Shown one piece after another: positions 15,349 through 18,717 of a DNA stretch of 64,000 nucleotides (position 1 is its first letter; each line of letters opens with the position of its first letter). The notes under the pieces were generated by a model, which was given only the letters and a program-made list of their open reading frames with translations, was not told the DNA's origin and did no database searches. The position numbers and the translations under genes are program-made. Origin of the DNA: Deltaproteobacteria bacterium (GTDB taxonomy: Bacteria > Myxococcota_A > Polyangia > Nannocystales > Nannocystaceae); NCBI GenBank assembly GCA_003696955.1, contig RFGU01000015.1:1-64000 (forward strand), written 5' to 3'.

Positions 15349-16456
15349 TCGACGGCACGCACCACGGGCCGCGCCCACACCGCGGACGTGCAGCGCCCCA
15401 CCGTTCTTGGCGCTCGCTCCCATGGACGGCGTCACCTGTCACGTCTATCGCGACGTCCTGACCCGGGGGGGCCCGGAGGTCTGCGGGATCTCGACGTGCG
15501 TGTCGGAGTTCGTCCGGGTGACCGACCACCAGGTCCCGGACCACGTGCTGCTGCGCATGGTCCCCGAGCTCGCCCAAGGCGGGGCCACGCCGTCCGGGGT
15601 GCCCGTCTACGTGCAGATCCTCGGCGGGGCGGAGGCCCCCATGGCCGCCACGGCGCGCGCCGCCGTGCGGCTCGGCGCCCGCGGGATCGACCTGAACTTC
15701 GGTTGCCCGGCGCGCACCGTGAACCGCCACGACGGCGGGGCCGCCCTGTTGCGCACCCCGGAGCGAATCCGCCGGATCACCGCCGCCGTGCGCGACGCGG
15801 TGCCCGACGACGTGCCCGTGTCCGTCAAGGTCCGCCTCGGCTGGGACCGCACGAACACCATCGGTGCCATCGCGTCCGCGGCCGAGGAAGGTGGTGCCAC
15901 CTTCCTGGTCGTCCACTGTCGCACGCGCTGCCAGGGTTACGCTCCGCCCGTGGACTGGCATGCCCTCGCCCCCGTCGTGACCGACCTACGGATCCCGGTC
16001 GTCGCCAACGGGGACCTCTTCACGCCGCAGGACGTGGCCGCCTGCGAGGCGGCCTGCGGCGCCACTGCCTTCATGTTCGGCCGGGGCGTCATGGGCCGGC
16101 CGAGCCTGTTTCGCCAGGTTCGCGGCATCGCGCCCCGCGCCCCCGATCCACTTCCCGACCTCGCCCGCCTCGTCTGCGCGTACGCCCGGTCGCTGGCCCA
16201 CCACGGTGCTCCGCCGCGGGCGCGACTTTGCCGGATCAAACAGTGGTGGCGTATGGCGGCGGCGACGCGCGCCGACGCCGTGCCGGTGTTCGACCGCGTA
16301 AAGCGCATGGGCGATCTCGGCGACGCGCTCGCGTTCCTCGAGACGATCAGCGACGGCCGCCCGGAAAGGCCCGTGCGCACCGATCCACCGCCAGGTCCAA
16401 CTCCGCGCCCTCCTCGTCGAGCAACAGCGTCGCGCAGCGGGCCGCCTGCGGCGTGA
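15341..16456 (+). CDS. dusC: tRNA-dihydrouridine synthase, DusC-like
   Basis: This FMN enzyme reduces uridine to dihydrouridine in tRNA. The 371-aa product has the Dus barrel: LALAPMDGVT at the start, EFVRVTD, PSGVPVYVQILG, the catalytic Cys122 in DLNFGCPARTVN, PVSVKVRLGWD, VHCRTR and GRGVMGRP (FMN phosphate). These segments resemble E. coli DusC more than DusA or DusB, which would predict U16 as the target; that is inference. The normal fold seems complete by about residue 345. The last 30 residues are Pro/Arg-rich and are read antisense to the convergent lipoprotein gene (110 bp), so the natural stop may have been lost. Confidence 0.9.
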   Translation: MHDRRHAPRAAPTPRTCSAPPFLALAPMDGVTCHVYRDVLTRGGPEVCGISTCVSEFVRVTDHQVPDHVLLRMVPELAQGGATPSGVPVYVQILGGAEAPMAATARAAVRLGARGIDLNFGCPARTVNRHDGGAALLRTPERIRRITAAVRDAVPDDVPVSVKVRLGWDRTNTIGAIASAAEEGGATFLVVHCRTRCQGYAPPVDWHALAPVVTDLRIPVVANGDLFTPQDVAACEAACGATAFMFGRGVMGRPSLFRQVRGIAPRAPDPLPDLARLVCAYARSLAHHGAPPRARLCRIKQWWRMAAATRADAVPVFDRVKRMGDLGDALAFLETISDGRPERPVRTDPPPGPTPRPPRRATASRSGPPAA

Positions 16457-16883
16457 GTTCCTCGCGGCAGGCGGCTTCGTCGGCGGCGCGGGTGCGGTCG
16501 AGCTCCGCGAGGATCCGCGCCCGCACCCGCGGGTCGGTATCGACGGCGGCGTAGCGGCGACGGGCCGCGTCCAACATGGCACGGCAGGCCGCCTCGGGAT
16601 CCCCCACGGCGGGCACCCGGGGGCCGAGTCGCGCCGCCAGCGTACGCGACTCGGCGTCGTAGTCGGGACCCTTGCCGACCGAACCGGGGTCGCGATTGGC
16701 CACCCGGACCCGCGTCAGCGGCGCCACCGCGCCACGGGACGACTGCGTGCGCCCCTCGCCCCCACGCGGAGCGTGACCGGCCGTCGGCGGCGGCGCGGGA
16801 GGCGTCTGCGCACAGCCGGCGGCGGCTGCGAACGCGACGACGCGGAGCAGCCGACGAAGGTGGGATGGCGCGGCCACGACCAT
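16347..16883 (-). CDS. Small Cys-containing lipoprotein
   Basis: The 178-aa protein has a signal peptide with lipobox AAAAGC (Cys near residue 24), a Pro/Gly-rich linker and an Ala/Arg-rich helical domain with several Cys residues (about 105-178). No family is recognised. ATG 16883 lies 5 nt after a TATGCT box that overlaps the -10 box of the divergent cytochrome gene. Its last 110 bp are antisense to the DusC tail; the protein-like quality of its C-terminus suggests this frame is the real one there. Confidence 0.72.
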   Translation of the reverse strand: MVVAAPSHLRRLLRVVAFAAAAGCAQTPPAPPPTAGHAPRGGEGRTQSSRGAVAPLTRVRVANRDPGSVGKGPDYDAESRTLAARLGPRVPAVGDPEAACRAMLDAARRRYAAVDTDPRVRARILAELDRTRAADEAACREELTPQAARCATLLLDEEGAELDLAVDRCARAFPGGRR

Positions 16884-16887
16884 CGCG

Positions 16888-16894
16888 TAGCATA
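16888..16894. promoter_or_regulatory. Symmetric bidirectional -10 element TAGCATA
   Basis: TAGCAT (plus, 16888-16893) ends 6 nt before GTG 16900. TATGCT (minus, 16889-16894) ends 5 nt before ATG 16883. The same seven bases can therefore serve as the -10 box for two divergent leaderless transcripts whose start codons are separated by only 16 bp. Confidence 0.55.
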
Positions 16895-16899
16895 GGCCG

Positions 16900-18717
16900 G
16901 TGCCCGCGAGAAGCCGCCTGCACCTCCCGCTTGCCGTGACGACCTTCGCGCTCACGGCGGCACGGGCCCACGCCGCCCCCACCGAGCCGGGCGACCTGGC
17001 CCATCCGCTCGACGCCGCCACGAGCTGTCAGGGCTGTCACGCCTTCGGCAACCCCGCTCCCCACGCCATGGATCCCCCCTATGCGCCCTTCGCGTGGCAG
17101 GGTTCCCTGATGGCCAACGCCGCCCGGGATCCGGTGTTCTGGGCGGGCGTCGCCATCGCGAGCCAGGACGACCCGACCCACACCGACACGTGCATCCGGT
17201 GCCACTCTCCCCGGGCCTTCCTCGAGGGAAGGGGCGACGCCATCTCCCCGGAGGATCTGACCTACGCGGACTTCGACGGGGTCACCTGCGACGTATGCCA
17301 TCGACAGATGGACGACGGGCAGACGCCCCCGGGCAATGCGGCCTACGTCCTCGACGACACGGAGGTGGACGGCGCCGTCCCCAAGCGCGGCCCGTGGTCC
17401 TACGCAGGCCCCCCCATGCCCGAACACCCGACCCTTCAAGACGCCTTCGTCGGCTCGTCGCGCATGTGCGGCACCTGCCACGACGTCACCACGCTTCGCG
17501 AGCGCGTCGACGACGACGGCGTCCCGATGGGCATGGCGTTCAACGAGCAACGCACCTACTCGGAGTGGGCGAACAGCGCCTACGCCCAACCCGGACCCGA
17601 CTTCCGCTCGTGCCAGGACTGCCACATGCCCGCCGTCGCCGACGTGTCGGGATGCGCCGACTTCGCCGCCATGCAGCTCCATGCCACCGGGGGCCGCCGG
17701 CACGACCTCGTGGGCGCCAACCGATTCGTCCTCGAGTTGTTGCGGGATCTCTACGGGGACGCGGGGACCGGCGACGTCCAGAGCATCTGGTTCGATCGTA
17801 CCCTCGAGCGACTCGACGAACTCGCCCCCACGTCGGCCACCATCGACATCGACGCCCCGGCGAGTATCGACGCCGCCGCCGGCTTCTCCATGACGGTCAC
17901 GGTGACCAACGAGACCGCCCACAAGCTGCCCACCGGCTACTCGGAGGGCCGGATCGCCTGGCTCGAGGTCGTGGCCCGCTACGGGGAAGAGATCGTGTGG
18001 TCTTCCGGGGACCATGCCCCGGGCGAAGGCCCCCTCGGTGATCCCCAGCTTCGCACCTACCGGGCCGTGGCGGAGAACTTCGCCACGAAGCAGTCGTTCC
18101 ATCTCCTCGAGAACGACCACTGGGTCGAAGACACCCGGATCCCCCCCAAGGGGCTCGTCCCGGACCCCGAGACGGACCCGGTCACGGACCGCTATCCCCT
18201 CCTGCCCGAGGGCAGCTACGCCCACTACGACGTCGTTCCCTACGACTTCGAGGGCGCCGAGGTGGTGGATGCCACGCCGAGCGACCCCGACGACGATCTG
18301 CTCGAGATCGAGGTGCGCCTGCTCTACCTCGTCAACACCAACGCCTACGTGGACTTTCTGGCCGCCGAGAACGTGACCAACGACGCGGGCGAACGGGTCA
18401 AGACCCTTTTCGACGACCGCGGCGGCGCCCCCCCGGTGGTCCTCGGCCGCGCGAGCCTGCAGATCCCCCTCACCGGGCTCGTGCCACCCGCGGGAGGTTC
18501 GTCGACGGGGGGCGCGTCCGACGGCGGGACGACGGGCGCGTCCGGGGACACGACGGCGTCGTCCGGCACGGGAACGGGGACCGGCGGGACGGACGGAATG
18601 GCCATGGAGACCGGGCGCGGTTGCGGTTGCGACGCCCGGGCACCTGCGCCGTCCGCACCCATGCTGGCCTCGGTCGCGGTTCTGCTGGCAGGACGCCGCA
18701 GGCGCCGTCGGCGTTGA
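16900..18717 (+). CDS. Pentaheme cytochrome c-like protein with MYXO-CTERM-like anchor
   Basis: The 605-aa exported protein has a signal peptide (residues 1-25) and five CxxCH heme sites: CQGCH (43), CIRCH (98), CDVCH (130), CGTCH (190) and CQDCH (238). A beta-rich domain follows (about 290-520, with NETAHKLPTGYSEGR, a motif common in multiheme proteins of this type). Then come a Ser/Thr/Gly linker, a GCGC motif, a hydrophobic helix and a terminal Arg cluster, the MYXO-CTERM layout. This predicts a heme protein displayed on the cell surface, possibly for electron transfer. GTG 16900 sits 6 nt after a TAGCAT box. Confidence 0.88.
   Translation: MPARSRLHLPLAVTTFALTAARAHAAPTEPGDLAHPLDAATSCQGCHAFGNPAPHAMDPPYAPFAWQGSLMANAARDPVFWAGVAIASQDDPTHTDTCIRCHSPRAFLEGRGDAISPEDLTYADFDGVTCDVCHRQMDDGQTPPGNAAYVLDDTEVDGAVPKRGPWSYAGPPMPEHPTLQDAFVGSSRMCGTCHDVTTLRERVDDDGVPMGMAFNEQRTYSEWANSAYAQPGPDFRSCQDCHMPAVADVSGCADFAAMQLHATGGRRHDLVGANRFVLELLRDLYGDAGTGDVQSIWFDRTLERLDELAPTSATIDIDAPASIDAAAGFSMTVTVTNETAHKLPTGYSEGRIAWLEVVARYGEEIVWSSGDHAPGEGPLGDPQLRTYRAVAENFATKQSFHLLENDHWVEDTRIPPKGLVPDPETDPVTDRYPLLPEGSYAHYDVVPYDFEGAEVVDATPSDPDDDLLEIEVRLLYLVNTNAYVDFLAAENVTNDAGERVKTLFDDRGGAPPVVLGRASLQIPLTGLVPPAGGSSTGGASDGGTTGASGDTTASSGTGTGTGGTDGMAMETGRGCGCDARAPAPSAPMLASVAVLLAGRRRRRRR

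Follow-up and report, generated by a model that had tools for sequence, protein, structure and literature searches.

A symmetric -10 box probably shared by back-to-back cytochrome and lipoprotein genes in the Nannocystis family

The divergent genes and their spacer

The window, a 64,000-nucleotide stretch of contig RFGU01000015.1 (Nannocystaceae; assembly GCA_003696955.1), contains a five-haem cytochrome gene and a predicted lipoprotein gene that diverge from a very short spacer (Table 1). Both reading frames appear genuine: the cytochrome carries five CXXCH motifs and a signal peptide over 605 residues, and the 178-residue lipoprotein, for which no Pfam or NCBIfam family was matched, has the lipobox-like sequence AAGC. 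At the C-terminal end of the cytochrome (window 18500-18717), a linker, a Cys motif, a hydrophobic stretch and an Arg run match the MYXO-CTERM part of NCBIfam models, and this tail suggests myxosortase-dependent anchoring at the cell surface. The 3' end of the lipoprotein gene overlaps convergently with that of a dihydrouridine synthase gene (+ strand, ending at 16456) over 110 bp (window 16347-16456).

Table 1. Features of the divergent locus, in window coordinates
Feature	Positions	Strand	Remarks
Predicted lipoprotein gene	16347..16883	-	178 aa; ATG at 16883; possible GTG start at 16877; lipobox-like AAGC
Alternative lipoprotein start codon GTG	16875..16877	-	Kept in the same-genus relative G001, in which the ATG is changed to ATC
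Intergenic spacer, CGCG-TAGCATA-GGCCG	16884..16899	.	16 bp, read from sequence
Candidate shared -10 box, TAGCATA	16888..16894	.	TAGCAT on +, TATGCT on -
Putative -10 hexamer TAGCAT, cytochrome gene	16888..16893	+	6 nt before GTG 16900
Putative -10 hexamer TATGCT, lipoprotein gene	16889..16894	-	5 nt before ATG 16883, 11 nt before GTG 16877
Five-haem (five CXXCH) cytochrome gene	16900..18717	+	605 aa; GTG start; signal peptide; MYXO-CTERM-like tail

Re-reading the sequence confirmed the positions, the two hexamers, the 16-bp gap between start codons and the 6-nt and 5-nt distances given in the preliminary description. The box is flanked on the left by CAT (16881-16883) and CGCG (16884-16887), and on the right by GGCCG (16895-16899) and GTG 16900. 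It fits the pattern TANNNT on each strand; a TANNNT hexamer with a trailing A reads as TANNNT on the opposite strand as well. Within the box T1 and A7 belong to one direction each, while A2 and T6 belong to both. When the hexamer ends are taken as -12 and -7, A16889 and T16893 fall at -11 and -7 in the forward direction, and their complements at -7 and -11 in the reverse direction. TAGCATA thus displays the reciprocal -7T/-11A pairing (rule from PMC10268837) that is a feature of the symmetric -10 class of bidirectional promoters.

Start-codon spacing in the genome

We counted TANNNT hexamers upstream of start codons in an 874,530-base sample of this assembly (~20%, taken as stretches), in which 644 genes were called by codon usage and 611 had enough upstream sequence. 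Genes were called with a simple program of our own, which misses the lipoprotein gene itself because the 3' end of that gene overlaps the adjoining gene. The numbers of genes with TANNNT at 6, 7, 8 and 9 nt from the start codon are 28, 14, 22 and 22, respectively, against a background of 1.62 per position further upstream. This amounts to 86 of the 611 genes where ~6.5 are expected, an excess which indicates that leaderless-type genes are common in this genome; ~14% of the sampled genes look leaderless or nearly so. The same spacing picture came from a smaller first sample, and the same peak from a 400-kb sample of Paraliomyxa miuraensis. In the survey of Zheng et al. (2011), leaderless genes were found in 8 of 33 delta-proteobacterial genomes, at an average of 15.8% in those (PMC3160421). 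The leaderless-type genes here use both ATG and GTG, as do leaderless genes of Mycobacterium tuberculosis (PMC3898074). Only six of the 86 hexamers are followed by the A that completes a two-way box. Just before the hexamer, TG is enriched (T 39%, G 62%; an extended -10) in the 66 leaderless-type genes of the first 0.66 Mb sample, where position -23 from the hexamer also shows a weak preference for T.

The preliminary description had called both genes leaderless. No clear Shine-Dalgarno site was found for either gene. For the cytochrome the claim is supported, since its box lies at 6 nt, the commonest TANNNT distance in the genome. The lipoprotein is less straightforward. Its ATG 16883 is 5 nt from the box, a distance seen in just one of the 611 genes, and the aligned codon in the same-genus relative G001 is ATC, so a leaderless reading at this codon is insecure, as is the ATG itself as the genuine start. 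The next start codon common to both genomes is a GTG 11 nt from the box and 6 nt inside the ATG (window 16877). In orthologues outside the genus, the lipoprotein start sits 7-8 nt from the box, within the leaderless range, a spacing that would fit a leaderless lipoprotein gene in those relatives. Initiation usually falls 6-7 nt from the hexamer, and a reverse transcript made in this way would begin inside ATG 16883, ~4-5 nt before GTG 16877; the lipoprotein mRNA may therefore have no leader or a very short one (~4-5 nt). The label 'leaderless' is thus well supported, on sequence grounds, for the cytochrome only. A longer lipoprotein frame, open as far as 17021, was rejected as the source of the start because the lipobox spacing fits a start close to the box.

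The box in relatives and elsewhere in the genome

The comparison set comprised 11 genomes from seven genera of the family holding Nannocystis, Enhygromyxa, Plesiocystis and Paraliomyxa, with the window genome included. The head-to-head pair recurs with a 20-21-bp spacer in nine genomes outside the genus, and the box is also present in G001. Both genomes of the window's genus have TAGCATA, eight genomes have TACGATA and one (G007) has TACCATA, giving the consensus TASSATA, so that all 11 tight pairs have a -10 hexamer readable on both strands. T1, A2, A5, T6 and A7 are unchanged throughout (10/10 when G003 and its near twin G013 are merged, as in all column counts); the remaining columns between -30 and +36 reach 8/10 at most. 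The central bases vary (GC, CG or CC), but those that are read in both directions do not. Outside the window's genus, the distance from the box is 8-9 nt for the forward start and 7-8 nt for the reverse start, and both fall in the leaderless range. The proposal that one symmetric -10 box serves both genes, for which conservation in relatives had been named as a check, survives this comparison: the box is held while the surrounding spacer drifts.

The shared-box arrangement is rare within this genome. Among 88 divergent pairs called in the sample, the target is the only one in which a TANNNTA lies at promoter distance from coding starts on both sides; the other close divergent pairs lack a box altogether, have a single one, or carry two distinct boxes placed back to back. 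In the 400-kb sample of P. miuraensis (G009), the sole case is the orthologous pair. A looser version of the layout, with two separate leaderless-type boxes, is seen in the window genome at two divergent pairs 53-60 bp apart (L199 on contig 66; L063 on contig 16, 4012-4072).

A chance TANNNTA in the 16-bp spacer deserves hardly any credence. The box is only seven bases long and the pattern requires just four of them, but the expectation for T, A, T and A in a usable register at 31.4% A+T is ~4 x 0.157^4 = 0.002 per spacer, and the arrangement is unique in the 0.87 Mb sampled. Its invariance over seven genera refutes a chance origin.

In other relatives the two genes are separated. The Nannocystis genes are still divergent but ~250 bp apart: in six genomes the lipoprotein has TATGCT followed by C, 8-9 nt from the ATG, and in the genomes read the cytochrome box, 7 nt from the ATG, is TAGGAT or TAAGAT with a G after it. 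The Plesiocystis and Enhygromyxa genes lie on separate contigs, each with its own one-way box, and the Plesiocystis cytochrome box is TAGCAT-C, lacking A7. In G008, for example, the cytochrome is preceded by TAGCATC and the lipoprotein by TATGGTC. A box of this kind is missing from several other separated cytochrome copies. Most separated lipoprotein genes retain their own TANNNT 6-9 nt upstream. The exception is G024 (L006, L044), where the genes lie ~6 kb apart and both still carry the full 7-mer (TACCATA and TATGGTA), as if a recent rearrangement had split the pair. Its lipoprotein side was left out of the count of tight pairs because there is no convincing coding frame opposite. By genus, among those with a box, A7 is present in 7/7 tight and 1/4 separated cases (hypergeometric p ~0.02), a contrast that counts as support rather than proof because the genomes are related and not independent.

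These observations bear on whether the box is a one-way -10 element for the cytochrome only, with the lipoprotein promoter inside the cytochrome gene and A7 coincidental or inherited. The unusual 5-nt distance of the lipoprotein ATG, its loss in G001 and a minus-strand frame that is open upstream to 17021 would all suit such an arrangement. We consider it improbable, given that A7 is invariant in 11/11 tight pairs and mostly gone in separated genes, that the lipoprotein start is 7-8 nt from the same box in nine relatives, and that most separated lipoprotein genes have a TANNNT of their own at 6-9 nt. The invariance of T1, A2, A5, T6 and A7, together with the loss of A7 from most split genes, instead gives good support to a shared bidirectional -10. 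The persistence of the base dedicated to the second direction in back-to-back genes, and its loss from most genes after separation, suggests that the second direction is itself under selection.

Initiation in two directions and comparison with known systems

The preliminary description placed any -35 contacts inside the opposite gene, and here it found no support. At spacers of 15-19 in both directions, the best matches to TTGACA in the 11 genomes mostly reach 1-3 of 6 positions, no better than sites picked at random in the window; 4-5 of 6 are reached on the reverse side in a few relatives, and neither gene contains a -35 element better than chance. An extended -10 (TGn) is absent in both directions in 11/11 genomes. 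The sequence TCGC is partly kept ~20-23 nt upstream of the forward box, but within lipoprotein codons, where it could equally reflect protein conservation. Since the genome's other leaderless-type promoters often bear TG, the lack of both TGn and a -35 indicates that the shared promoter may be weak or activator-dependent.

The same lack, combined with the extreme conservation of the box, might suggest that a regulator or an alternative sigma factor binds here and that the box is no -10 element of the housekeeping type. This seems very unlikely: the start-codon distances follow the genome-wide TANNNT spacing of unrelated genes, both hexamers are TANNNT, and the box is non-palindromic, unlike the usual site of a dimeric regulator. 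TAGCATA is very probably one shared, bidirectional -10 element of the housekeeping type that serves both genes.

As a shared element, the box would be bound by RNA polymerase in either orientation. In the forward direction the polymerase would melt TAGCAT and most likely initiate on the G of GTG 16900, so that the cytochrome mRNA would lack a leader; in the reverse direction melting of TATGCT would lead to a start at 16883-16881 and a lipoprotein mRNA that is leaderless or begins ~4-5 nt before GTG 16877. Two polymerases could not occupy the box at once, so that each round of initiation would choose one direction. In this scheme the sequence, the extent of its conservation and the leaderless-type spacing across the genome are observed, and the start sites, the sigma factor and the mutual exclusion are inferred. 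A bolder reading, which we regard as doubtful, is that this lone symmetric -10, kept by selection family-wide and accompanied by no other promoter element, forms the entire control region of two (nearly) leaderless genes. Which of the multihaem cytochrome and its partner lipoprotein is expressed, to the exclusion of the other, would then depend solely on how the polymerase is oriented.

Bidirectional promoters with a symmetric -10 have been described by Warman, Grainger and colleagues: because the -10 is nearly symmetric, RNA polymerase can bind it in either orientation, and the usual distance between start sites is 18 bp (PMC12825309, PMC10268837). That group reports competition between directions only at high activity (PMC12825309, PMC10268837), so mutual exclusion in the cell is, for our locus, an expectation and not a finding. 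By the class rules in these papers, divergent start sites lie 7-25 bp apart on opposite strands; the start codons here would imply 17 bp, and the start sites predicted from sequence 17-19 bp. One -10 box read on both strands, reciprocal T-7/A-11 pairing and no need for a -35 are shared features, and at the sequence level the locus belongs to this class. The arrangement is therefore not new in kind. It differs in that each direction leads into a protein-coding gene whose leader is predicted to be very short or absent, which places the start codons beside the promoter, and in that the element is kept family-wide. Bidirectional promoters are known mostly from start-site maps, and the second RNA is often non-coding; this locus, compact and naturally occurring, could serve to study how polymerases compete for one -10 that feeds two mRNAs, each predicted to have a very short leader or none.

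Other parallels are partial. The TA-led leaderless genes of M. tuberculosis (PMC3898074) and those in the survey of Zheng et al. (PMC3160421) likewise have TANNNT ~6-9 nt before ATG or GTG and no clear -35; those promoters are mostly one-way. The M. tuberculosis prpD/Rv1129c pair consists of close divergent leaderless genes, for which the available part of that report describes no shared box (PMC3898074). The EcoRV restriction-modification promoters (PMC5333194) are also divergent with overlapping polymerase binding sites, but they are under the control of a C protein, whereas no regulator gene belongs to the pair described here. Within the known class of bidirectional promoters, what is unusual at this locus is the combination of very short leaders with long conservation.
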